A program made the translations under genes and the position numbers. Shown one piece after another: positions 6,549-25,354 of a stretch of 64,000 nucleotides of DNA; within the stretch, counting starts at the first letter, position 1; each line of letters opens with the position of its first letter. The notes under the pieces were generated by a model that saw nothing but the letters and a program-made list of their open reading frames with translations, did no database searches and had not been told where the DNA came from. Where the stretch lies: positions 1 through 64,000 of the forward strand of contig JAQVFO010000007.1 in assembly GCA_028697205.1 (NCBI GenBank), in the 5' to 3' direction. This DNA is from Candidatus Altimarinota bacterium. Lineage in GTDB: Bacteria > Patescibacteriota > Gracilibacteria > BD1-5 > UBA6164.

Positions 6549-8243
6549 ATGTTTAAAAATGAAGAAATAATTCAAACAAAAACTTGTAACAACTGTAACT
6601 CAAATTTTAAAATCACAAATAAAGATTTGGAGTTTTATGAAAAAATATCACCAAATTTTTGATGAAATAAATATTTAATTCCTTTACCTAATCTATGCCC
6701 TGAATGTAGACAACAAAAAAGATTATCATTCCGTAATGAAAGAAAATTATATAAAAGAAAATGTGATGCAACTGGTAAAGATATTATTTCAATTTACTCT
6801 CCTGAAAAAAACTATAAAGTATTTAATCAAGATTTTTGGTGGAGTGATAATTGGGATGCTTTAAATTATGGAAAAGATTATGATTTTAGTAAACAATTTT
6901 TTGATCAATTTTGAGAATTATTAAACGAAGTACCAAAACAAAATCTAATATGAGCAAATAATGAAAATTCAACTTATTGTAACTTAACTGCTGATAATAA
7001 AAACTGTTATCTAATTTTTGAAAGCTCAAATAATGAGAATTGCCTTTTTTGACACTGGCTGCAAAAATGTAACAAATGTAGCGACTGCAACTTTATGCAC
7101 GAATGTGAATTATGTTATGAAAGTTTAGATTGCTATTTTTGTTATAATTCTAAATATCTTTTCTCATGTAAAAATTGTTATGATTCATATTTTTTAGAAG
7201 ATTGTGTATGATGTAAAAATTGCTTCTGATGCGTAAATTTAGCAGATAAAGAATATTATATTTTTAATAAATCTTATACTAAAGAACAATATTTTGAAGA
7301 AATAAAAAAATATAAAATTACAAATTATTTAAAAGATGATTTTCTAGAATTTTCAAAAAAATTTCCTAAAAAAAATTTAAGAATACTAAATTCAATTAAT
7401 TGTATATGAAATCAAATTGAAAATTCAAAAAATTGCATTTTATGTAATCACGCACATGATTCAGAAGATTGCAAATACTCTGAACATGTATGGAGAAATG
7501 CTAAAAATTGTATGGATGTTAGTACCGCTTGAAGAGATGCAGAATTTATTTTTGAATCAATTAATTGTTGAATTTGAGTTTATAATTTCAACTATTGTGT
7601 TCAATGTTGGACATGATCAAATTTAACTTACTGTATGTTTAATAGTAATATACATAATTGTTTCTGATGTGTTTGATTAGTAAATAAATCTTATTGCATA
7701 TTAAATAAACAATATACTAAAGAACAATATGAAACTATTGTTCCAAAAATAATAGAACATATGGTTTCAACATGAGAATGGTGAGAATTCTTTCCTTCTT
7801 CTATTTCTCCTTTTTGATATAATGAAACTGTAGCTGATGAATATTTTCCTTTAAGTAAAGATAAAGCGTTAAAAACTTGATTTAACTGGTCAGATTATGA
7901 AGCTCCTTTTCCAAAAGTAGACAAAATAATTCCTGCTTCAAAATTACCTGAAGACATAACAAAAATTCCTGATGATATACTAAATTGGGCTATTGAATGT
8001 GAAGTAACTAAAAAACCTTTTAAAATAATTAAACAAGAATTAGAATTTTACAGAAAACATAATTTACCAATTCCTAGAAGACATCCAGATAGGAGGCATC
8101 TTGATAGAATGAATTTAAGAAATTCTATAGGGTTATTCGATAGAAAATGTGATAAATGTCATAAAGACATAAAAACTACTTATTCTCCTGATAAACTAGA
8201 AATTGTTTATTGTGAAGAGTGTTATAATAAAGAGATATATTAA
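6549..8243 (+). CDS. Array member 1: Cys-rich solenoid protein with zinc-ribbon ends
   Basis: 564 residues. An N-terminal ribbon-like module has CNNC at residues 13-16, then FKITNKDLEFY, and CPEC near 49-52. Two Cys/Asn-rich stretches follow, with NC or CxxC every 8-12 residues, which looks like a short-rung beta solenoid. Each stretch ends in a cap of the form L-x-N-K-x-Y-x-I-x-N-K-x-Y-x-K-E (near residues 230 and 375). A FFPSSISPFGYNET element and a second ribbon (CDKC, CEEC) with its own LEFY motif close the protein. I recall similar proteins from other CPR genomes, often misnamed CaiB/BaiF; no CoA-transferase feature is seen. The function is unknown, and zinc binding is inferred. Confidence 0.85.
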
Positions 8244-8355: not shown

Positions 8356-10602
8356 ATGAACAGCTATTTACTAAAAGTATATCATTCATTTTCATCTGGT
8401 AGAAAGCTTTTTGAGGAATTTCTTGATGATGTATGAAAGACACTAGAACATAAAAGAATGGTTTTTTGACTTAATTATAAAAAATGAGAGTTCTTTTATA
8501 GTTTAGATACTGATAACAAAGTTCTTCCTTCTTTTGAATCACAGTTTTATAGCTTTTTTAATAATTTTCAAATTGATTTAGATACAAAAGATTATTTAAA
8601 TTATGATATAAGTAAATCAATTATTTGAGAAGTGTATCTAAAAAATAAGTACTTTTTCCCTTTTAAAATGGATAGTTCAGATAATACGGACTTTATATTT
8701 AGTATATTTAGATCTTTTGAAAATCTAAATGTAGCAACAGATAGAGTTGGATTTTTCATAGACATCACTCCTATAAAAACTGAAAGTATTTTATTTTATG
8801 TCAAATCTAAATGGAAATTTTTTATTTTCAAAATTAAACTAAAATTTCAATTTTTTAAATATATGTTTAATTTCAAGGTACAAAAAGATTGGAAACAAGA
8901 ATGATATAAATACTATAAATCAAAAATAGATCATGAACTTTTTGAAACAAAAATATATATAATAGTCCAATCTTCATCTAAAGAAATGGCTATATCCAAA
9001 CTTGGCTGAATAGCATCAAAATTACTCGTTTTTAAAAACTATCCTCAGAATCAATTTGATATAAGATTAAACAAAAATCCTAATTTAGAGGACTATAAAA
9101 GTGGAAACTATTGAATTTCTATGAACCTAACGGCTCTTGAAATTTCAAATTTATTTTGTTTTCCTAAGGATCCAAAAAATGAAACTGGACTTTTAAAAGT
9201 TACTTCAAAAAAATTAGCTTTACCTATCTGAATACCAACATACGATTATGATAAAACTAAAATCTGAGAAATAATTCCAAAGAATATCCCAGATGATATA
9301 AATATAATATGAGTTTCAGATTATAGATCTATAACAGTCCCAATCTGAATTTATGATGAAGATAGACTAAGACATATCTATGTAATTTGAAAAACCTGAA
9401 CTTGAAAATCAAAGTTTTTAATAAGTAATATCATAAATGACATTACTCAATGAAGATGAGTAGCTATAATAGATCCTCATTGAGATTTATTTGAAGAAGC
9501 TATTGCTCATATCCCAGCTAACAGAGCAAAAGATGTAATTATATTTGACCCAACTGATGAGAAATTCCCTTTCTGTATAAACCCTCTTGATGTTACTCCT
9601 GACGAATCTAAACAAATTCTTGCAAAATGATTTATAGACATATTTAAAAAGTTTTTTTGAGCAAATTGGAACCCTAAGCTAGAACATGTTTTAAGAATGA
9701 TATTTTTAGCATTATTAGATAAAAAATGATCTACACTTTTTGATATAATTAGAGCTTTGACAGATAAAGATTTTAGATATGAAATGATAGAAGCAATTGA
9801 AGATGATGTAGTAAGAAACTTCTGGACAAATGAATTTGCTTGATGGTCTCAACAATTCAACACAGAAGCCATTATGCCAATACTAAATAAAGTCTGACAA
9901 ATACTTTCTATAGAAGTTTTAAAAAATATTTTTGCAGCAAAAGAAAACAAACTTGACTTCAGAAAAGCAATGGATGAGAAAAAAATCCTACTTATAAAAC
10001 TTCCAAAATGAAAACTTCAAGAAGAAATTATGTGATTTTTATGAGCTATGTTTGTAACAAAAATCTATCAAGCTGCAATGAGTAGACAATGAATTGAAAA
10101 AGATAAAAGAGTCCCTTTTTTCCTTTATGTAGATGAGTTTCAAAACTTTGCAACAGATACTTTTTGAGAAATCCTGTCAGAAGCACGTAAGTACTGACTT
10201 GGTCTTTCTGTTGCACACCAATTTATAAAACAAATTCCTGAAAATCTTACAAGAGCACTTTTTGGTAATGTATGAACAATTGTAAGTTTCAGAATTTCAA
10301 GTGAGGATTCACTTTACATGAAACAACATTTTGAACCGTTTTTAGATGCTTATGATTTAGCTAACTTAAACCAAAGATCTTTTTATTGTAAAACTATGGT
10401 TAAATGACAAGTTAAAGATCCTTTCTCTCTTAAATCCCTTTACATACCAGATGTAAAAATAGATAGAAATTTTTTAGAAAAACTTTACGAATTATCAAGA
10501 AGCAAATACAATAGAAGCTTAATGGAAGCTAAAAAAGTAATAGAAGTAGAGCAAAAAGATGTTATCAAAAAACTTGAAGACTTTGGAGAACCTTTGATTT
10601 AG
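8356..10602 (+). CDS. VirD4/TraG-like (DUF87/HerA-type) conjugative ATPase
   Basis: 748 residues. The Walker A motif GKTGTGKS is at residues 345-352 (three of its Gly are TGA) and the Walker B motif FFLYVDEFQNF ends in Asp593-Glu594. Between them lie AIIDPHGDLFE and FCINPLD, typical of the type IV coupling-protein family found in many CPR genomes. The N-terminal third has no clear domain; a Lys/Phe-rich segment near 160-185 could touch the membrane. Such ATPases energise DNA or protein transfer. No relaxase, VirB4 partner or other mating gene is seen nearby. It has its own strong promoter and sits inside the Cys-rich array. Stop TAG. Confidence 0.85.
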
Positions 10603-10665: not shown

Positions 10666-12156
10666 ATGCTTGACTTAAAAATCTGGGAAGAAAAAATCAA
10701 GGAAAAAAGAAAAAAAACTCAATTTAAAAATTTTGTTAAAGAATTTGCAAGTTGGGAGGTTTTAAATCTATATAAAAATAAATGACAAGTTTGTAGATAT
10801 CCAGATAGCTGAAGAGTTAAAAATCTTGATAACAAAGAATCTCAAAATGCTTCAAGTTATTTTTTAGACTATGATTTTAATTTAGATTTTTTTAAAAATT
10901 TTCATAAGTTAAACAATATTGTACCATACCAATACCTAATATCTTTTTGAGATATGAATGAAAATACAATTTTTGCTGATGCTGTATTTTGAGCAAAAGA
11001 TTGTTATTTGTCATTTGTTTTATGAAGAGAAGTTGAAAGAATCTTGTATAGTGCTTTTGTAGTAGTTAATTGTAAAAATATTATTAATAGTTTTCTTGTA
11101 ACATACTGATCTGAAAATATATGTATGTCAGCATGAATAACAAATTCATTTAATATTTTTTATAGTAAATATATAACTGATTCAGCAAATATATGGTTTT
11201 CAACAAACTTAATTTGATGTCAAGAATGTATTTTTTGTAATTGATTACAAAACCAAAGATATTGTTTTCAAAATAAAATTTTAGAAAAAGAAGAATATTT
11301 TAAAATCAAAAAACAGATTTTAGAAAAAAAATATAAATTTCTAGAAAATTATATTTTTATTTCAAAAAATGAACCTATAAATTATTTATCAGAAAATATA
11401 AATGGTAAATTTAATATAAAATGTAGCAATATTAAAGATTGATATTGGCTAAATAATATGGAAAATGTTAGAAATTGAATTATTGGTTTTAGTGATTGAT
11501 GAGATGCAAAGAATTTTTATGATTGTGTAGATTTTTGAATTACTTCACAAAATATGTATGGTTGTGTTGCAAGTTGAAATGAGTGTAAAAATATATATTT
11601 ATCAACTCAATTAGATAAAAGTTCAAATATATATTATTCATATTTTATGACCAACTGTTCTTTCTGTATTTGATGTATCTGATTAAAAAACAAATCTTAC
11701 TGCATTTTAAACAAGCAATATTCCAAAGAAGAATGGTATAACTTAGCAAATAAAATATTTGAACAAATGGATAAGGATTGAATTCTTTGAGATTTCTTTC
11801 CTTGATCTTTAAACCCTTTTTATTTCAATGATACTATGGCTTATCTTATAGATGATAGTTTCACTAAAGAAGAAGTTGTCAATGAATGATATATGTGGAG
11901 AGATAGTGAGATAAAAGTTGATATACCTGAATGAGCTGATATTGTAGAAGCTAAAGATATAAATAATTTCCAATGATATGACTCAAATTGAGATTGGTAT
12001 ATAAATTCTGAGATTATGAAAAAAGTTATTATTGACGAAAATTGAAATTATTATAAGATAGTTCCTATGGAATATGATTTTTTGATGAAACATCAATTAC
12101 CACTACCAGAAATTCATTGGCTTGATAGAATAAAATTAGGATTTAAATTTAAATAA
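10666..12156 (+). CDS. Array member 2: Asn-rich solenoid protein, ribbon-less type
   Basis: 496 residues. It begins with a basic WEEKIKEKRKKT segment in place of the N-terminal ribbon. The body has two solenoid stretches in which N-x-[IF]-[YF]-x-S recurs about every 11 residues, with fewer Cys than member 1, each closed by the family cap (near 205-225 and 343-362). It then has FFPGSLNPFYFNDTMAYL and ends WLDRIKLGFKFK without a CxxC ribbon. Its closest relative is member 7 at 22396, which shares both ends. The role is unknown; loss of the Cys pairs suggests that this subtype no longer needs metal at its ends. It is preceded by the 55-bp leader. Confidence 0.85.
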
Positions 12157-12168
12157 TTTTTAATAAAA

Positions 12169-14028
12169 ATGGATAAAAAACTTTTTGAGTTTGTTTCAAA
12201 AACTACAAACGAAAAAATCTTAGAATATAAAAAATGTAAATGGTGTAATGATGAATACCCTATTTATGAAAGAGAAAAAAAATTTATAGAAAATCATAAC
12301 TTTGAAATTTCAGATTTATGCTTTGATTGTAGATATAGAAATATGCTTTTATGGAGAAATGAAAAAAAACTATATTGGAGAAAAAGCGATAAAAGCTGAA
12401 AAAAAATACTTTCGCTTTATTCACCAGAATATGAAAGCAAGGTTTATAATTATGATGAATGGGAATCAGAGGGATGATTTTCTCATATAAATATGGATTT
12501 TGATTGAAAGAATTTTATAGAAAACTTTTATGAATTATTTAAAAAAGTTCCAAAAGCTTGAACAGATATTTTCTGGACAAATGAAAATATACATTATTGT
12601 AATAGAGTTTGATACTTAAAAAATGCATATTCAACTTATGCTTGTTTTTGAGATTCTGAAGATGTCTATTTTTCTATAAATATTTCAAATTCAAAAGATA
12701 TTTATAACTCTACAAAAATTGATAAATCAAATCTTGTCTATGATAGTGTAATGGTTTATAATAGCTATGAAATATTTTTTAGTGATGCAATTAACAATTG
12801 TAAAAATATTTATTTTTCTTACGATTTAAGAGACTGTGAAGAATGTATATTCTGTTCAAATTTAGTTTGAAAAAAATATATGATTTATAATAAACAATAT
12901 GAAAAAAATAAGTACGAAAAAATTAAAGAAAATTTAAAGCAAAATACTGCAAGTTATAAATGACTTGAAAAACTACTAAATGATTTTGAAAATTTAAAAA
13001 TAAAAGCAATAAGAAGATGAACTTATAATATATGATGAGATAAAGTTTTATGAGACCAATTAAATAATTGACATGATACACTTTTTTGATTCCGGATGGA
13101 TGAACCAGATGATTGTTTCAACTCTGCAAATTGATTCCCTGCTATACAAAAAAAAGTTTACAATTCCTTTGGTTTCTGAATGGTAGAAAATATGAGTTTC
13201 TGACAAGGAAATTGACCTTGAACAAACTTACATTTCACACTAAATGTTCAAGAAAGTAGTGATATTTATTTCTCACAAAAAATGAAATGATGTCACAATT
13301 GTATATGATGTTATTGACTTCAAAATTCTGATTATCACATATTGAATAAAGCTTTTTCAAAAGAAGATTATGAAAAATTATTTCCTATAATGTTAGAAAA
13401 TATCAAAAAAAATTGATGATTAAGAAATTATTTTGAACCTGAAAAAAGTCCTTATCCTATAAATGATTGTCAATTATTTATAGAATTTCCTGCTTTTTCT
13501 ATAAGAAAAATTATCTGATATAAATGATGAGAAATAGACAAATATAATTTTGAAGAGCAAATATTTGATAAAAATTGAAAATGAATTGTTTATATTTTGT
13601 ATCCTGAAAAAGATATATCTGAAGCAATTTTTGATTTATGATGACAAAAAAAAGTACATACAAAATGGAAAAATAAAGAAACAGAAATAGATATTCCTGA
13701 CTGAATGATAAAAATAGAAGTTTGTGATATAAAAGACTATGCAAATGATATTGATGAAAATATTTTAAATTGTGCTATTCCATGCATAAAAACTTGAAGA
13801 TACTTTAGAACTATCAGAAAAGAAATAGAGTTTTGTAAAAAATACAATATAGCTCTTTCTAGAGTTCATCCAAATAAAAGAATTGATGATAGAAGAAAAA
13901 GATCTCCAAAATTGTGACTTGAACTAACTAATTGCAAAATCTGCTCTAAAGAAATTTTATCTGCTTATGATAAGAATAGTTTATATAATATAGTTTGTGA
14001 AGAGTGTTACGAAAAGCAAGTTTATTAA
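12169..14028 (+). CDS. Array member 3: solenoid protein with zinc-ribbon ends
   Basis: 619 residues. The N-terminal ribbon has CKWC and CFDC, and the C-terminal ribbon has CKIC and CEEC. Two solenoid stretches end in caps near residues 240 and 395. A segment unlike member 1 follows: a beta-rich stretch with IVYILYPEKD and QKKVHTKWKNKETEIDIP, also found in member 6. It starts 12 bases after member 2 with no separate promoter visible, so the two are probably cotranscribed. Members 3 and 6 form a subtype; here the metal-ligand Cys are intact, while in member 6 they are lost. The function is unknown. Confidence 0.85.
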
Positions 14029-14086: not shown

Positions 14087-15949
14087 ATGTTTCAGAATGA
14101 AAAAGTTGTAGAAACTAAAATTTGTAAACATTGTAATTCTAAATTTGAAATTACTGATAAAGATTTAGAATTTTATGAGAAAGTTTCTCCTGTGTTTCCT
14201 TCTAGCCCACTTGATAAAGGGGGTAAGGGGGATTTCCCTTATAATAATAACAATCAAAATATCAAAAATTCTGAAACAATCCCCAAATCAAGTTCGAAGA
14301 CTAAAGGTTCACCAGGATGACAAAATGTTTTAATCAAAGATTTATGAAACTGAAAAGTTCGCTACTTAATTCCCTCTCCAACTCTTTGCCCAGACTGTAG
14401 ATTTCAAAATAGACAATCTTTTTTGAATTGTAGAAATTTATATAAACGTACTTGTGATTATTCAAAGAAAGAAATTATTTCAAATTATTCACCTGATAAA
14501 CCATACAAAGTTTATGACCCAAAAATATGGTTTTCAGATAAATCTGACAGTATAATATATTGAAAAGATTTTGATTTTTCCAGAAATTTCTTTGAACAAT
14601 ATAATGACTTGTTTAAAATAGTACCAAGAATGGCTCTTGATCAGTGAATAAATATGAACAATAGTTCTTTTAACAATTATGCTGATTTTTTAAAAGATTG
14701 TTATATGTGTATTCATGCGATTAACGATGTAAATTGTTATTATGACTATTCAATTTTTGAATCAATTGATTGTATTGATTGTTACTGATCTTATGAAAAT
14801 AAAAACTGTTATGAATGTATTTCTTGTAAACAATCATATAATTTATTTTATTGTAACTTATGTAATAATTGTAACGATAGTTATTTTTTAAAATCTTGTA
14901 TATGATGTAAAAACTGTATTTTTTGTACTAATTTAATAAGTCAAGAATATTGTATACTTAATAAGCAATTATCTAAAGAAGAGTATAATATTGAAAAAGA
15001 AAAATTCTTAAATGAACTTAAAAAAAATAAACAAAATTTGCAAAAAAATTTCATAGAGTTTTTATGAAAAAATATTGCAAAATATGCAAGTATAACAAAT
15101 AGTGAGAATTGTACATGAGACAATATAATGTGATCAAAAAATTGTAAAAAATGTTTTAGTTCAAATAATTCTGAAAATGTTGCTTACTCATTTATGACTG
15201 ACAAAGCAATAAATTGTTATGATTGTGATAGTAACAACAATTTAGAAAATTCTTATTATTCACTTATAAGTTGAGCATCTGCATATAATTGTCATTTTTG
15301 TATCGCTTGATGGGATAACTGTAAAAATTTACTTTACTCAGATTATTGCTTCTTTTGTTCAAATTGCTTTTGATGTATTTGATTAAAAAATAAATCATAT
15401 TGTATATTAAATAAACAATATACCAAAGAACAATATGAAACTCTTGTCCCAAAAATTATTGAACATATGATTTCAACACAAGAATGGTGAGAATTTTTTC
15501 CTTCTTCAATTTCTCCTTTCTGATACAATGAAACTGTTGCTGAAGAGTACTTACCTTTAAGTAAAGCTGAAGCGCTAAAAAGTTGATTTAAGTGGTCTGA
15601 TTACGAACAACCATTTCCAAAAGTTGATAAAATTATTCCGGCTTCTAAACTACCTAATGATATATTTTCTATTCCTGATGATATATTAAATCGGGCAATA
15701 GAATGTGAAATTACTAAAAAACCTTTTAGGTTAATAAAACAAGAATTAGAATTTTATAGAAAGCATAACTTACCTATTCCAAAAAGACATCCAGACCAAA
15801 GACATCTTGATAGAATGAGTTTAAGAAATCCAAGAAAGTTGTTTGATAGAAAGTGTTATAAATGTGGAAAAAATATTAAAACTACATATTCTCCAGATAG
15901 AAATGAAATTGTTTATTGTGAAGAGTGTTATAATAAAGAGATATATTAA
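14087..15949 (+). CDS. Array member 4: Cys-rich solenoid protein with a GC-rich insert
   Basis: 620 residues, same subtype as member 1. The N-terminal ribbon has CKHC and, after a 50-residue insertion, CPDC; the two solenoid stretches are very Cys-rich; caps lie near 284-302 and 428-446; the C-terminal ribbon has CYKC and CEEC. The insertion (about 14198-14352) separates the FYEKVSP motif from the LIPSPTLCPDC motif and starts with the GGG/GGT-rich segment DKGGKGDFP, very unlike the base use of the gene. The last 90 residues match the ends of member 1 and of the 94-residue member 8. The function is unknown; metal binding is inferred from the Cys pattern. Confidence 0.85.
14204..14243. repeat. 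GC-rich REP-like insert inside a coding gene
   Basis: A G-run segment (GGGGG, GGGG) in otherwise AT-rich coding DNA, read in frame as SPLDKGGKGDFP. It resembles short dispersed repeats of the type with alternating CCCCC/GGGGG runs that I recall from several bacterial phyla; only one copy is seen here, so repeat status is inferred. Confidence 0.5.
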
Positions 15950-16022: not shown

Positions 16023-16760
16023 ATGTTAAATGAAGTTTTAAAAAATTACTGATTTTCTGATAAAGAAGCAAAAATTTACCTGTCTTGTTTGGAGCTTGGT
16101 AATGCGATTGCCAGTTCTATAGCTAGAAAAGCGTGAGAAAATAGAGTTACTACTTATTCTATTTTAAAAGAATTAATTTCAAGATGAATAATAAATGAAT
16201 TACAAAAAAATTGAGTTAAATATTTTTCAGCAATTTCACCAGAAGAACTTATAAAACATGAAGAACAAAAATTAGAAAAACTTAAGTGAGTTTTACCTGA
16301 ACTAATGGCTATTTCAAATGCTTACAATAATAAAACAAAAGTTTATTATTATGACTGATTAAATAAGGTAAAAGAATTGTTTATAGAAATTGTTGATGAA
16401 TGAGATTACTTAAATGAACCTTTTCTAGTATTTGTAGGAACACAAAATATGGATGAAAGATTTAAAGAATTTTTTGATTGAGAATTTAAAGAATACAGAT
16501 TAAAACAAAAAACCCCTACAAAAGCAATCATATCTGACAGAAATTCAAACTATTCAAAATACCATCAAGAAAACCATAATACTCTAATTATTGAAGATGA
16601 AGTTTTTGAAATGTGAAATGAAATAGTTATATACTGAGCAAAAGTAGCAATATTAAGTTATAACAAAGACGAAATATATTGATTAGTTATAGAAAGTAAA
16701 GTACTATCAAAATGATTAAAAAGTATGTTTAATCTAATACGGAAAACATATAAAAAATAA
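16023..16760 (+). CDS. TrmB-family transcriptional regulator
   Basis: 245 residues. Residues 1-70 form a winged helix of the TrmB type: FSDKEAKIYLSCLELG, then ARKAGENRVTTYSILKEL and a wing ending GVKYFSAISPEEL. A short coiled-coil linker follows, then a PLD-like C-terminal effector domain (DGLNKVKELFIEI, FVGTQNMDERF, EIVIYGAKVAILSY). TrmB-type proteins usually bind palindromic operators as dimers and sense a ligand. It lies in the middle of the Cys-rich array, and its leader shares 12 bases with the array leaders, so the array genes are plausible targets. The start ATG at 16023 is the only good one. Confidence 0.8.
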
Positions 16761-16786: not shown

Positions 16787-18937
16787 ATGGATATTTTATG
16801 AAACGTAGCATGAAAATTATCAAACAATTTTCAAAGTACAAAAGAAAAACTAGAACAAATATCAAATGTATTAAGAAAAGTACCTGATATTTTAGTTTTC
16901 TCTTTTTCATGAAAAAAAACAAATAACTTACCAAAAATAAAATCAGATAACTTTAGATTGTATATATGACAAATATTTACTGATTGAAGATGATTATATG
17001 ATGAGGAATTTTTAATCTGATCAATAAAAACTTACTTAGAAAAATTAGAATATTGAGAAAACCTAATAATTGAAAATTCTTCTATAGTTAGTTGGATAGT
17101 AAATTGATTAAGAGAAGATGATAATGCTATTTCAAGCAATGAACAAGTTGTTTATTTAGAACAAATAATTAATAAATATTTTCCTAAACAAAAAAGTAGA
17201 ATAATTATTTCAAAAATTGAAGATTCTCATAAAGAACTATTATCAACTATTGAAAAAAAATGATTAGAGTGACTTAAATCAGATGAAAATATATGACTTA
17301 ACAAAAACTTTACAAGTTTAGATATAGCTAAACTACTCTATAAAGCTAGCCAAAAAAATGATAATTTTTTTACAAGGTTAGTTAGTACAATGAAAAAAAG
17401 AAAATGAGTTGAATATAATAAAAATGATTTAGAGAGCTATTATACACTTATTGAAATTGCAATTAGATTAACTGATTTTGTAAAATGAATTAGCATTCAA
17501 TGATGAGAAGCAAGACAAAGTTTATATGACCATATAATTATTGATATATTAAATTGAAATTTTGATGAAATTACAGAATTAAAAACTATCAAAAATTTTT
17601 GTTTATACACTGCAAAAATACCTTTCTTTAGAACTCTAAATTTTAGTAAAGAAAAATACAAACAAGAACAAGAAAGACAAGAACAAGAAAAAATATTTAA
17701 GAATAAAACTAATAAAATTGCTATCCCTACAGCACTTTTAGTTACAGCTTTAATTTGATGACAAATAAAATCAACTTATGATGATTATACAAAAGAACAA
17801 GCACTTGATGAAAGAATAAATGCCGTACTAGTTGAAGCACTAAAAGACAAAACTATATTTACATATTTTAAACCTGCTTGGTGAGCTAAATACGAAACAG
17901 ATAAAGAGAAAATACATTATCTAGATGAAACTTGATGGACTTTAGTAAAATTATTTAAATCAAGATATTGAGAATGAGATGCTAGCGACAAAGAATTAAA
18001 ATTATTTTTTATATGAGAAATGATTGAATTAATGAGTTTTCCATTTTACGAAGATATGACTTGAGAAGAATCATATATAAAGTTTATTGAAAGAGTTTTA
18101 CAAATTCCTCGTGTAAAAAGAGAACTTATATCTATGTGATTTAATGTAGATAATAATTATCTAAAATATGAAAAGTACAAACAAGCATTTTCAACTACAT
18201 ATAATTACTCTTGAAATCTAAATCAAACAAGTAAGCTTGACTTTGCAAGCAATACCCTTGAATATATAGATAGTAAATGAACTATATATCAAGTTGAAAT
18301 ACATACTTGTAAAACAACATGGCCATCAATTCCATCAAATTGATGTTTGATAAGCCAAAATGTATGAGATAATTATATATTAGCATCAAAGTGGAATTAT
18401 TGAGATTATAATTTAAAAGATTGAAAAAAAGTTGCTCTTGATTTTCTCTCAAGTCCATATAATAGACTTATACAAAAAATAATTATAACTTGAACTACTT
18501 TTTGAGATAATTTTTTTAATTTAGAAGATGATATAAGAAAAAAAATAGTTGATTTAGTAATAGAGAAAAAATACAGTGAGGAAGAAATAAAATCTTGGGA
18601 AACTGAAGACATAATAATATTTTTACAAAATAACTTCAAAGAACATTTAAATACAGATTTTAAAGAAATTGCTGCAAATACTCTAAACTTAGATGAAAAA
18701 ACTATAAATGAATTATCTAAACATAAATGAAATTTTTTCACAACTAAAATATGAAAAATAAAAATATGAGTAATAGATTACTCTATAAATATATTTGAAT
18801 TTAAATGAAAAAAATATTTTTACCTAGATTTTTGAAATTATAATAATTGAGAATGATTAAATCTATATTGATTTAAAGTTGATAATGATGATACTACAAA
18901 ATTTTTACAAGATTTATTAGAAAAGTTAAATAAATAA
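16787..18937 (+). CDS. Large hypothetical protein with one central membrane span
   Basis: 716 residues, starting 27 bases after the regulator gene and probably cotranscribed with it. Residues 1-300 look cytoplasmic. A charged KQEQERQEQEK coiled segment precedes one hydrophobic span near 308-325 (IAIPTALLVTALIGG). The remaining 390 residues, mixed alpha/beta with several Trp, could be outside the cell. No domain is recognised. The pairing of a soluble sensor-like half with a larger external half would suit a membrane-spanning signalling or surface protein, but this is inference from topology alone. A strong terminator follows. Confidence 0.75.
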
Positions 18938-19050: not shown

Positions 19051-20607
19051 ATGCAAAACCCAGCAAAAATCCTACAACAATTATGAGCCTTTTGGCAACA
19101 CTTTTGAATCCATAAAAGAAAATCAGATTTCTCCTGAAAAAATATAGTTTCAGTATTTTCTGAAAAATGCCCATATCCAGTTTGGCACAAAGATGAGTGG
19201 ATATCAAACTCAAACCCTCCATTTACAATTTATGATGATAAAAAAGATTTTTGGGAACAGGTATGGCAGTTATTTTCAACTTGTCCTATGGCTCACAATA
19301 CAAGCTTATGAAATGAAAACTGTGAATATACAGATGACTCTTGGTATAGTAAAAATTGTTATCTATGTCATTCCATAGCAAATTGTGAGGATTGTAAATA
19401 CAGTTACAGAACATTTCAAACAAAAAATTGTTATTTTACTGTATTTTCATTTGATAGTGAATTTTGTATAGATTTGGTTTACTGATATAACTGCTACAAT
19501 GTAAAATATGCAATAGATGTAAAAAGGTGTAAAAATAGTGCTTTCTTATTTGATTGCCAAGATTGTGAGGACTGTCTTTTATGCTGGAATTTAAGAAGCA
19601 AAAGGTACTGTATAGCAAATAAACAATATGAGAAAAGCGAATATGAAAAAGAAGTAAAAAAGTACAATCTCAATTCAAAAAAAGTTTACAATACTCTAAA
19701 AAATCAATTTTTAGATTTTATAAAAACCAATGCTTGGTGGAAGTCTCTACATTTTGATAATGTAGAAAATTCAAGTTGAGATTATTTAGCAAATTGTAAG
19801 GATTGTGAAAATTGCTTTTCAATTCAAGCATCAGAAAACAATAAAAATTCTGTGAGAGCATACAATATAAAAAATACATCTTATACAATATGAAATTATA
19901 ATTGTGAAAATACTCACTATTCAACAATAGTACAATGAAACTGCTATGATGTTAAATTTTGATACAATGTAGCTGAATCAAAATTTATGGAATACTGTAT
20001 AAATTGTCAAGATTGTGAAAACTGTTTTTTATGTGCATGACTAGTTTGAAAAAAATACTTTATATTAAACAAAGAATATTCAAAAGAAAGTTATGAAACA
20101 GAAAAAAACAGAATAGTTGAAAGTATGAAAATGAAATGAATTTATGGAGAATTTTTCCCTGCATATTTTTCACCTACAAGTTATGATGAAAGCTTATCTA
20201 GTGTATATGTTCCATTAACTAAAGAAGAACAAAAAAAAGAGTGATTTAGAGTAATTGAAGAAAACTATGGACAAAAGTGAGATTATAAAGATATAAGTAA
20301 ACTCCCTGATAACTTACTTGATTTTAACTCTGATGATTTGATAAAAAAATGATTTTGGGATGATGATTACCATAGACCTTTTCAAATACTAAAAGAAGAT
20401 ATAGAATTTTATAAAAAATTATGAGTTCCAGTAAATGATAAATTTTATATAAAAAGAATTAGAGAAAATTTTTCACTTATGTTTCAAAGTTTTGAACTTA
20501 GAGAAACAGTTTGTGCAAAAAGTTGAGAAAAAATACTTACAACTTTACCAAAAGAATTAGATAAAAGAATAGTTAGTCAAAAAGAATATGAAAAATTAAT
20601 TTATTAA
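19051..20607 (+). CDS. Array member 5: Cys-rich solenoid protein
   Basis: 518 residues. It lacks a clear N-terminal CxxC ribbon, starting with a Trp/Phe-rich helix. The body has two Cys-rich solenoid stretches with NCxxC, CQDCEDC and CQDCENC and the family caps near 190 and 340. FFPAYFSPTSYDES replaces the usual FFP element and the C-terminus has only one Cys, so the terminal ribbon is gone. It keeps the interior Cys pattern of members 1 and 4 while losing the end modules. A TATAAT at 19017-19022 lies 29 bases before the ATG. The stop is a double TAATAA. The function is unknown. Confidence 0.83.
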
Positions 20608-20617
20608 TAATACTTTT

Positions 20618-22330
20618 ATGGAAAAAATCATAGAAACAAAAGTCTGTAAATGGACTTGAGAAAAGTTTAATATTTACGAAAAAGACTTAGAAATACTTGA
20701 AAAACTAAGCCCTGTTATTTGATGACAAAAATTTCTTCTACCAACTCCAAATTTATCACCAAAAGCAAGAGAAATAAATAGACTTATGTTTAGAAATGAA
20801 AGAAATTTTTACAAGATAAAAACTGAAAATTGAAAAAGTGAAATATCTACAATTCACCCTGATATGAGAAAAAGAATTATTGATATAGAAAATTTTAACA
20901 ATTATGACTTTACAAAAGAATGAATTGATTACACTTGAAATTTCCTTGAAGATTTTAGAAAATTAATATTAAAGTCCCCAAATCAATCAAGGTTAATTGC
21001 AAATATGGAAAATTCTCCATATTGTAATCAAGAAGCAAATAATAAAAATTGTTATCTAAATGCTTGATGATTTGAAAATGAAGATTCTATGTATAACACT
21101 TTTGCAACAGTATCAAAAGATGTAGTTGATAACTACTGGGTATTTAATAGTAGTATAGTTTATGATTCTATAAATATTTTTTCATCTTCAAAAGTATTTT
21201 TTAGTACAGAAGTCAAAGATAGTTATAATTGCTATTTCTCATACGATTTAGTTTGATGCCAAAATGTAATTTTTTGAAGCAGTTTAGAAAATAAAAATTA
21301 TGTATTTAAAAATGAAGTTTTATCAAAAGAAAAATGGGAAGAAAAATATAAAGAATTCAAAGATAAACTAAAAACAAGAAAATGATTAAATGAATTAAAA
21401 AAAGAATTTGAAGATTTTTTAAAAAAAGCATGAAAAAAAGAAGTTTTTATTGAGTCATCCGAAAATACATACTGAAATATAATTATAAACTCAAAAAGTA
21501 GTTTTGAAGTACTTTATTGAAACAAAAATGAAAACATAAGATATGCAAATATAGTATGGGAAGTAAATGATTCTATGGATATTAATTCATTTGCATATTG
21601 AGATAAAGTTTATAACTGTGCAAGTTCTGGGTTTGTAAAAAGTTCTATTTCATCATCTCATATTATTTATAGTGACAATATATTTTACAGTTTCTGAGTT
21701 GATTCTATTAATCATGCTTTTTGATGTTTATGATTTTGATTAAAAAATAAATCTTATTTAATTTTAAATAAAAAGTATGAAAAAGAAGAATGGGAAAAAA
21801 TAGTTCAAAAAATAATTCTAGAACTTCAAGAAAAATGACTTTGGTGAAAATTTTTATCTCCAGATTTAAGTCCTTTTCCTTACAATGACACAGTTGCTAT
21901 GGAGTACTACCCTATTAAAAAAATAATGATTCTTGAATGAAATAATATAGTTTCAGAAAAAATAAATAGTGAAGACGGAATCTGAACTGTATACATTCTG
22001 GAAAAAGATAAATTTATAAGTAAAGCTATTATAGATTTCTGATGAGTAGAAAAAATACATACTTATTGGAGAACAAAAGAAATTGAAGTTGATATACCTA
22101 AAAATATGGAAAAAATCTTATGAAATGAAATTCCAGAAATTGACACAATTGATGAGTCAATTTTAAACAAAGCAATAATTTGTGAAAAATCAAAAAGACC
22201 TTTTAGAATAGTTAAAAAAGAACTTGAGTTTTATAAAAAGTATTCTCTTCCAATTCCAAGTTTACACTATAATGAAAGACACTTAAATAGAATAAAAATG
22301 AAAAGTAATAATTATTATTTTGTAGAATAA
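20618..22330 (+). CDS. Array member 6: solenoid protein with lost ribbon cysteines
   Basis: 570 residues, related to member 3 by the VYILEKDKFISKAIIDFGG and HTYWRTKEIEVDIP segments. The N-terminal ribbon positions read CKWT and LSPKAR, so three of the four expected ligands are absent, and the C-terminal ribbon is cut off after RHLNRIKM. The solenoid stretches use N, S and Y more than C (for example YDSINIFSSS and NSSIVYDS), with caps near 225 and 388. It starts 10 bases after member 5 and looks cotranscribed. It shows that the fold tolerates loss of the Cys, so metal binding is probably not essential to the solenoid itself. Confidence 0.83.
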
Positions 22331-22395: not shown

Positions 22396-23880
22396 ATGTC
22401 TGATTTAAAAGTTTGGGAAGAAAAAATCAAAGAAAAAAGAAAAAAAACTCCTTGGAGAGAATATTTAATTTGAGTATGTTCTTGGTTACCATTTTCATAT
22501 TATAAAAATTCTTGATTTATATCTAGATATCCTATTTCAAATAGAATAAAAAACTTAGTTGATATAAATAATTTTCTTGAAAATGAATTTTCTACTGATT
22601 ATGATATTTCAAAAAACTTCTTTGAGCAGTTAGTAAATTTCCAAAGAAAAAGTACACTATGAAATATTTTACATTATTCAAAAAATGAAAACTCTGATTT
22701 TAGTGATATAGTCTTATCTTCAAAAAACTGTTATTTAAGTAATTCTATTATTATAGATTGATTAAATGTATTATATTCTTTTCAAGTTAAGGAAAATTCT
22801 CATAATATTTTTAATAGTACTTTAGTTTGGAATAATAGCGAAAATATTTATTTTTCATCTTGAATAATTAATTCATTTAAGATTTTTTACTCTAAATTTA
22901 TATTAAATTCAAATAATATATGGTTTTCATGAAATTTAAATTGATGTAATGAATGTATATTGTGTAATAATTTAGAGAATAAGTTCTATTGTATAAAAAA
23001 TAAACAATTTGATAAGGAAACATATTTAAAAGAAAAAAAGAAAATTTTAGAAAGTAAAAAAAGTTTTATAAATATTTATTTAAAATTGAATATCAGATGA
23101 AATAATAACTGAGAAAATATTATAAATTCTTATTTTGTTAGAGAAAGTGAAAATGTTGTAAGTTGATTAATGTGTTATAAAATAAAAAATTGAAGAAATA
23201 TAATGTTTTGGTGATGAAAATGAGATAATGAAAATATTTATGATTCAATGAGCTGATGAACAATTTGAAATACAGATTTTTATTGAGTTTGAAGCGCATG
23301 AGCAAATTCTAGTAACATTTATATATGTAACAATATAACATATTCTTCAAATATTTATTATAGTTTTCATTTAGAAAACTGTTCTTTCTGTATTTGATGT
23401 ATCTGACTAAAAAATAAGTCATTCTGCATTCTAAATAAACAATACTCAAAAGAAGAATGGTATGAACTAGCAAACAAGATATTTGCTTCTATGGATGCTA
23501 ATTGAATCCTTTGAGACTTCTTCCCTTGAAGTCTAAATCCTTTCTATTTTAATGATACTATGGCTTATCTAATAGACGATAGTTTTACTAAAGAAGAAGT
23601 TGAAGCTAAGTGATATATGTGGAGAGATAGTGAGATAAAAGTTGATATTCCTGATTGAGCTGAAATTGTTAAAACTTCTGATTTGGTCAACTTTCAATGA
23701 TTTGACTCAAATTGAAACTGGCATATAAATCCAGAAATAATGAAGAAAGTTATTCAAGACGATAATTGAAATATATATAAAATTGTTCCTATGGAATATG
23801 AGTTTTTGATGAAGCATAATTTACCTTTACCTGAAATTCATTGGCTTGATAGGATAAAATTAGGTTTTAAATTTAAGTAA
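22396..23880 (+). CDS. Array member 7: Asn-rich solenoid protein, close paralogue of member 2
   Basis: 494 residues. The first 18 residues (DLKVWEEKIKEKRKKT type) and the last 130, including FFPGSLNPFYFNDTMAYL, YMWRDSEIKVDIP and WLDRIKLGFKFK, are almost the same as in member 2, while the solenoid interiors differ strongly (for example GNTDFYGVGSAGANSSN here). Caps are near 205 and 341. It carries the same leader as member 2, so gene and control region were duplicated together. Conserved ends with a variable middle suggest that the interior surface is the part under diversification. The function is unknown. Confidence 0.85.
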
Positions 23881-23912: not shown

Positions 23913-24197
23913 ATGTCTTTTGAAAATGAGAAAGTTGTAGAGATTAAAACTTGTAGACATTGCTATAATCAGTTTGAAATCACAGACAAAAATTTAGAAT
24001 TTTACAGAAAGCATAATTTGCCTATTCCTAAAAAACATCCAGATCAAAGACATTTAGATAGAATAAGTTTAAGAAATCCTAGAAAATTATTTGATATGAG
24101 GTGTGAAAAATGTGGAAAAGATATTAAAACTACTTATTCCCCAGATAGATCTGAGATTGTTTATTGTGAAACTTGCTATAATACAGAAATTTATTAA
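23913..24197 (+). CDS. Array member 8: 94-residue mini-protein, N-ribbon fused to C-ribbon
   Basis: 94 residues, free of in-frame TGA. The first 33 residues match the N-terminal ribbon of member 4 (NEKVVE, C-x2-C, FEITDKNLEFY) and the rest match the C-terminal 65 residues of members 1 and 4 (RKHNLPIP, HPDQRHLDR, CEKCGKDIKTTYSP, CETCYN). The two solenoid stretches are missing. The join falls exactly at LEFY, a motif present in both end modules, as expected for recombination between internal repeats. Its many silent differences from member 4 suggest that it has been kept as a functional gene. CxxC pairs at both ends could make one or two zinc ribbons. Confidence 0.85.
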   Translation: MSFENEKVVEIKTCRHCYNQFEITDKNLEFYRKHNLPIPKKHPDQRHLDRISLRNPRKLFDMRCEKCGKDIKTTYSPDRSEIVYCETCYNTEIY

Positions 24198-24235: not shown

Positions 24236-25354
24236 ATGGAAATAATTCTTTGAGTAATAATCCTAGCTCTAATCTGAGCAATTGTATTTCTTATAATTAA
24301 ATGAAATAAAAAAGAAGATAGTGATTCTATGAGATTATTACAAGAACAAGTAATGAATTTAAATAGAACACTAGATACAAAACTAACAGAAAATACAAAA
24401 AGCATTGAAGAAAAATTATCAAATACAAACAAGACTTTAGATACAAAATTATCTGATGCAAATAAACTGATAACAGATAATATGCAAAAAACTTTTGCAA
24501 CTTCAAGCAAGATAAACGAAGATGCAAATAAAAGAATCGAAGATATTACAAAAAAACTTACACAACTTGAAGAAACAAATAAACAAATCAAAGATATTTG
24601 AGGACAACTTAGATGACTTGAAAATGTATTAAAAAATCCAAAACAAAGATGAAATTTATGAGAATATTTTCTGCAAGAACTTCTTGAAAATGTGTTTAGT
24701 GAAGATCAATACAGAGTTCAATATCAATTAGAATGAGTTTGAATTGTTGATGCTGCTTTATTTATTTGATGAAAAATAATTCCAATAGATTCAAAATTTC
24801 CTCAAGAAAATTATGAGAAACTTATAGCAAGTGAAGATAATGAGTTCAATATAAAAAAATATTCTTGAGAATTAAAAAAAGATATAAAAAATAGAATAGA
24901 TGAAACTTCAAAATATATACTTCCAGAAAACTGAACTACCGACTTTGCATTTATGTTAATCCCTGCAGAGTGACTTTATTATGATTTATTTATAAATAAA
25001 GTTTGAGAAATAGAACCAAGAAAACTTATAGAATATGCATTTTCTAAGAAAGTAATTATATGCTCTCCTTCAAGTTTTTATGCATATTTACAAACAGTTT
25101 TACAATGAATGAAAGCTCTTCAAATAGAAGAACAAGCAAAAGAAATACAAAAATACGTAATAAAACTACAAAAAGATTTAGCAAACTATGAAGAACTTTT
25201 TCAAAAAGTTTGAAGAAATTTATGAACTACAGTAAACTCATATAATGATGCATATAAAAGATTTAATATTGTTGATAAAGATATAATAAAAATCACAGGT
25301 GAAGCTTGATGAACAATTGAAATGCTACAACTAGAAAAACCAGATATTGAATAA
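24236..25354 (+). CDS. rmuC: RmuC-family DNA recombination protein
   Basis: 372 residues. An N-terminal span (residues 3-21) is followed by a coiled coil to about residue 120 and the RmuC nuclease-like domain: GNLGEYFLQELLE, VDAALFI, IPIDSKFP, and GTTDFAFMLIPAEGLYYD. RmuC limits inversions and is related to restriction-type nucleases; the Asp and the DSK of the fold are present. The N-terminal anchor suggests a membrane-associated protein. It overlaps no gene and lies 10 bases before the DAHP synthase gene, perhaps in one transcript. Confidence 0.88.

Follow-up and report, generated by a model that had tools for sequence, protein, structure and literature searches.

Small stand-alone proteins of the zf_Tbcl/zf_Tbcl_2 type are an already known architecture, and the 94-aa protein M8 described here is a lineage-specific variant that converges on it. 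Two other described domains bear comparison. The CxxC-x17-CxxC treble clef domain TIGR04272/PF23477 is matched by the C-terminal half of M8, which adds an N-terminal half ribbon, and the second treble clef of M8 resembles the second finger of LIM domains (profile E of 0.0005 to 1ctl), although the spacing between the two sites differs and Foldseek gave no significant PDB match for M8 or for its full-length relative M1. More generally, microProteins of plants and animals are defined as short, single-domain relatives of larger multi-domain proteins (PMC4807768, PMC5381583), and the gene-fusion method takes domains that one lineage has fused and another encodes separately as suggestive of interacting parts (PMC2248599).

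The window, meaning the whole 64,000 nt stretch of DNA that was analysed, carries one cluster of eight paralogues, M1 to M8 (Table 1), and all ten matches to M8 in its own genome lie inside this cluster. The layout of a full-length member is an N-terminal module of two treble clefs, a beta-rich and cysteine-rich body, and a C-terminal module homologous to the first; M1, M3 and M4 carry the body, while M8 is without the whole of it. In this Gracilibacteria genome TGA encodes glycine and long reading frames are seen only under code 25; the ORF of M8 has an ATG start, a TAA stop and no TGA codons. A 716-aa protein encoded between the TrmB regulator and M5 (16787-18937) has no Pfam match.

Table 1. 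Features of the paralogue cluster and its neighbors (window positions).
Feature	Position	Strand	Basis
M1, full-length family member	6549-8243	+	domain matches, CxxC survey
T4SS coupling-protein-like ATPase (TrwB_AAD_bind)	8356-10602	+	homologues near body-mini pairs elsewhere
M2, second ribbon-less body, full-length M3 12 nt later	10666-12156	+	no CxxC at either end
M3, full-length family member	12169-14028	+	CxxC survey
M4, nearest full-length paralogue of M8, 620 aa, N module + body + C module	14087-15949	+	alignment
TrmB-type winged-helix regulator	16023-16760	+	homologues near body-mini pairs elsewhere
M5, family member, degenerate terminal modules	19051-20607	+	CxxC survey
M6, family member without any CxxC	20618-22330	+	CxxC survey
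M7, body without CxxC at either end, 32 nt before M8, proposed partner	22396-23880	+	CxxC survey, gene order
M8, 94-aa stand-alone two-treble-clef mini-protein	23913-24197	+	ORF; PF23477 match; AlphaFold2 model
M8 N half, residues 1-31, N-module origin, CRHC retained	23913-24005	+	alignment, bit scores
M8 junction repeat TTAGAATTTTAC (LEFY), common to N and C modules	23994-24005	+	M8-M4 comparison
M8 C half, residues 28-94, C-module origin, CEKC-x17-CETC	23994-24194	+	alignment, bit scores
M8 HPDQRH, where N modules and stand-alone minis have the second C..C pair of their first ribbon (e.g. CPDC/CPEC)	24036-24053	+	alignment
RmuC family gene directly after M8	24236-25354	+	gene order

There are three CxxC motifs in M8, at residues 14, 64 and 85. 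Residues 57-91 match PF23477 (zf_Tbcl_2) at 30.3 bits, above the Pfam gathering cut-off of 27, while TIGR04272 scored 24.1 bits, under its cut-off of 36, and PF13451 (zf_Tbcl, gathering cut-off 24 bits) gave no match in M8 up to E = 1. The AlphaFold2 model (mean pLDDT 88.5) contains two treble-clef-like units, a confident fold model from which the M8 module is predicted to fold. All eight invariant residues of the module are retained in the alignment, and a nearly invariant arginine is replaced by Met62. One complete zinc site is expected, in the second treble clef with its CEKC-x17-CETC, and the first site is doubtful because CRHC is accompanied by HPDQRH in place of a second CxxC. PADLOC gave no match for M8, M1, M4 or M7, and only weak HerA/mad8 matches for the ATPase of the window; PHROGs returned nothing usable for M8, and viral contigs yielded no relative.

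M8 is chimeric, with halves of different origin that each match their own module type. Residues 1-31 align with residues 1-30 of M4, and residues 28-94 with residues 554-620, at 80-85% DNA identity, leaving 523 aa of M4 (31-553) missing from M8, close to the 520 or so given in the original prediction. Median scores of the N half were 41 bits for N modules, 22 for the stand-alone minis described below and 15 for C modules; the corresponding values for the C half were 117 (C modules), 66 (minis) and 47 (N modules). Because of these half-specific scores, and a PF23477 match above cut-off, the resemblance of M8 to the end modules is not a chance one. The joint is the shared TTAGAATTTTA repeat, which codes for LEFY; the junction DNA of M8 reads TTAGAATTTTAC, and both corresponding sites of M4 read TTAGAATTTTAT, which makes a direct repeat of 12 bp. 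That the two end modules are joined at LEFY, as predicted, is thus borne out by the alignment, the repeat at the joint and the bit scores, but the motif had been given as DLEFY/ELEFY, and M8 reads NLEFY. Deletion between the direct repeats would be the simplest route to M8. The module tree places M8 within the C modules of Gracilibacteria, with a support of 0.91. M4, from whose ends the prediction had M8 built, is its nearest paralogue in the genome, but it is not proven to be the parent, since paralogues elsewhere in Gracilibacteria are as close to M8 in the C part (85% DNA identity) and a C-module tree of 104 DNA sequences places M8 beside M4 and a paralogue of genome G035 with weak support (64-69).

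M8 and M4 differ by 24 silent changes on 54 silent sites and by 22 replacement changes on 228 replacement sites. The differences are therefore not 'largely silent', as had been claimed; it is the per-site silent rate that is higher, at 6-7 times the replacement rate. Pairwise omega is 0.15 (bootstrap 0.06-0.32), which is not neutral. Lineage values were obtained from three-way distances, the M8-M4 distance being split with the other paralogues as outgroups. For the C part, omega was 0.20 on the M8 lineage (0.06-0.59, with 0.25% of bootstraps at or above 1) and 0.10 on the M4 lineage, with a family C-module median of 0.21; for the N half of M8 it was about 0.10, from 27 codons only. When a 94-codon frame was left to drift unselected over 0.3 substitutions per site, it remained open in 4.5% of simulations. 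Given this result and an omega of 0.15-0.20, free drift does not describe the M8 branch as a whole, and the claim that M8 is kept under selection holds, though the constraint may partly be older than the deletion, and the deletion could be much younger than that branch. Neither a second chimera of an N half and a C half nor a close relative with the same LEFY joint, by which the deletion could be dated, was found in searches that covered 60 near genomes and, class-wide, 353 genomes.

It is conceivable that M8 is a recent deletion remnant, not yet decayed and functionless, with a low dN/dS that accrued before the deletion. The occurrence of the chimera in one genome, the simple deletion route offered by the direct repeat, the faster M8 lineage (dN of 0.069 versus 0.023 for M4) and the change to Met62 would all fit, and full-length members commonly follow M7-like genes. 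We nevertheless regard this as unlikely: every invariant residue and the exact reading frame are retained, the N half shows its omega of about 0.1 even without its partner CPxC, and so few unselected frames survive in the simulations. Features of a pseudogene or decayed remnant were not seen in M8, in which the frame is intact and omega well below one.

For the same short form in relatives the outcome was divided, the same chimera being absent and independent stand-alone single-module forms being widespread. Before the latter were found, M8 was the sole intact mini form among bounded family frames, and apparent short forms in other Gracilibacteria were rejected as TGA-coded full-length genes, contig ends or frameshifted pieces. 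A family member at a distant locus in Peregrinibacteria (L159) is immediately followed by a single-module gene for 89 aa, and a search with this gene recovered many stand-alone minis in standard-code families of the class. These minis are common in related Patescibacteria and consist of a single module of 85-96 aa with four CxxC, as in 19 of 19 extracted minis, where the extraction pattern itself required four. Canonical minis match PF13451 above its cut-off (32.6 and 25.5 bits) and zf_Tbcl_2 below it. The minis (L159 and L168-L216, of the zf_Tbcl plus zf_Tbcl_2 type) share with M8 a single-module gene of about 90 aa with two treble clefs, which immediately follows, on the same strand, a body gene belonging to the family. 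They differ in their four CxxC and their PF13451 match: M8, in which HPDQ stands in the first ribbon, is left with three CxxC and reaches the zf_Tbcl/zf_Tbcl_2 pairing in its second half only; nor does M8 cluster with them in the module tree. M8 was assembled from local N and C modules and is thus convergent with the stand-alone minis rather than orthologous. Separately, a sequence at a contig end (L039 / L135, 2-301) has a pentapeptide-repeat-like stretch (RGCINLKNISFEKSKVLESEFYG...) before the C module, possibly another, incomplete, kind of fusion.

The surroundings of 30 mini loci, picked by mini similarity and not by neighbors, were compared with those of M8. At 27 of them a body gene on the same strand precedes the mini, at a distance of -8 to +145 nt (median 17), and at the other three there is no detectable adjacent body. 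Nineteen of the 27 bodies are ribbon-less proteins of 313-360 aa, equal to about 117-435 of M1 minus both modules, and the remaining eight (416-425 aa) have one module. The ribbon-less M7 followed by M8 at 32 nt has the same layout, a likeness that is an analogy. Between M7 and M8 no terminator was found, and promoters showed no excess over shuffles. A body and module that are fused in some lineages and split in others would suggest interacting parts. The neighbors at the 30 loci include a coupling-protein-like ATPase in nine, a TrmB-type regulator in seven and RmuC in three, and the window carries all three; RmuC is also downstream of the mini (and UvrD) in L197, L201 and L202. Body-mini pairs with a T4CP-like ATPase or TrmB regulator often nearby were seen at L197-L216 and L255-L265. 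A survey of T4SS in Patescibacteria reported thousands of VirD4-type homologues, a minority of them near virB4 (PMC12102498), and the isolated coupling-type ATPase of the window fits this survey but is not explained by it.

Within the arrays of Gracilibacteria, a ribbon-bearing member is not commoner behind M7/M2-like genes (15/23) than behind other members (42/65), and a preferential ribbon-bearing follower after ribbon-less bodies was dropped when the rates proved equal with more loci. In 10 of 15 cases, exactly 12 nt separate an M7/M2-like gene from the ribbon-bearing member behind it (window 12157-12168; L052-L056, L083, L250), with a wide spread for other neighbors. Since the follower rates are equal and the M7-M8 gap of 32 nt is unlike this 12-nt spacing, M8 may sit where the next full-length member of the array once was, and its adjacency to M7 could be a mere product of the tandem array. 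M7-like proteins do not always need a neighboring ribbon partner, because in G035 no ribbon-bearing member of the family follows the M7-like genes. At two loci of that genome (L235, L236), which are without ribbon-bearing members, there is an alternating series of M7-like genes with genes for AAA-type ATPases (MFRKIYDQ.., MIKRDIIQ..) and a carboxypeptidase-like gene. In G122 (L076, 4488-4799, minus strand), a small zinc protein with an RNHCP domain (PF12647) is encoded just behind an M7-like ribbon-less gene.

The reading we prefer, and to which we give about an even chance, is that M8 is a body-loss product of a full-length paralogue, kept by selection as a zinc-binding subunit that acts in trans on M7 and perhaps M2. 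A paralogue with N module, body and C module would have lost its body between two LEFY-coding copies of the repeat, leaving a single hybrid module of two treble clefs with its own start and stop, and selection would then have retained this module. M8 would bind the ribbon-less M7 encoded just upstream, and perhaps also M2, and would give them in trans what full-length members have in cis, the ribbon module; the stand-alone minis presumably supply the ribbon module to their bodies likewise. By analogy with the body-mini pairs we infer physical binding of M8 to M7 as the probable outcome, and the two would be co-translated. M8 had been put forward as a regulator or binding partner of the full-length proteins. 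Circumstantial evidence favors binding in a modified form, in which the likely partner, from the analogy with body-mini gene pairs, is a ribbon-less body (M7, maybe M2) and not the full-length members; nothing specific speaks for a regulator.

Treble clefs are often nucleic-acid or protein binders, and M8 might instead work independently of any body, such as in the role of a small adaptor or nucleic-acid-binding protein tied to the T4SS coupling ATPase. The T4CP-like ATPase genes in the window and near the nine mini loci are in keeping with this, as are the three minis with no adjacent body detected, but the tie of minis to a body gene (27/30) is far above the ATPase association, and we consider such a role quite improbable. 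Least probable of all is a microProtein-type regulator that, in competition with the end modules of full-length paralogues, would titrate the partners or target of the latter: M8 is indeed a short, single-module relative of multi-domain proteins, but there is no sign of module-module pairing and no hint of inhibition, and the gene-pair pattern indicates a structural subunit of the body.

Placed in a wider setting, the subunit reading of M8 leads to a tentative proposal, held with a little less assurance, of an undescribed two-part system of Patescibacteria. In it, a cysteine-rich, beta-rich body and a treble-clef module would come either as one fused protein of 564-620 aa or from neighboring genes for 313-360 aa and 90 aa. 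A T4SS coupling ATPase and a TrmB regulator would often be encoded next to them, amplification would reach dozens of copies, and Gracilibacteria, in which the fused form prevails, would have re-created the split form once, as M7 and M8. The open-licence papers searched contained no account of the body family or of its pairing with a mini. If the proposal is correct, a natural deletion has revealed a piece, capable of standing alone, of a large, massively amplified and uncharacterised family, and the recurrent fused and split forms amount to a testable prediction of its subunit structure. The neighborhood of body, mini, coupling ATPase and TrmB regulator spans lineages with TGA as glycine and lineages with the standard code, and might, as a speculation, have to do with host or DNA interactions of these ultra-small epibionts. 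The family is absent from some genomes, even within the same genus (G001), and is hugely amplified in others, with 72 matches in G010 and 84 first-look candidates in the 0.9 Mb of G145.
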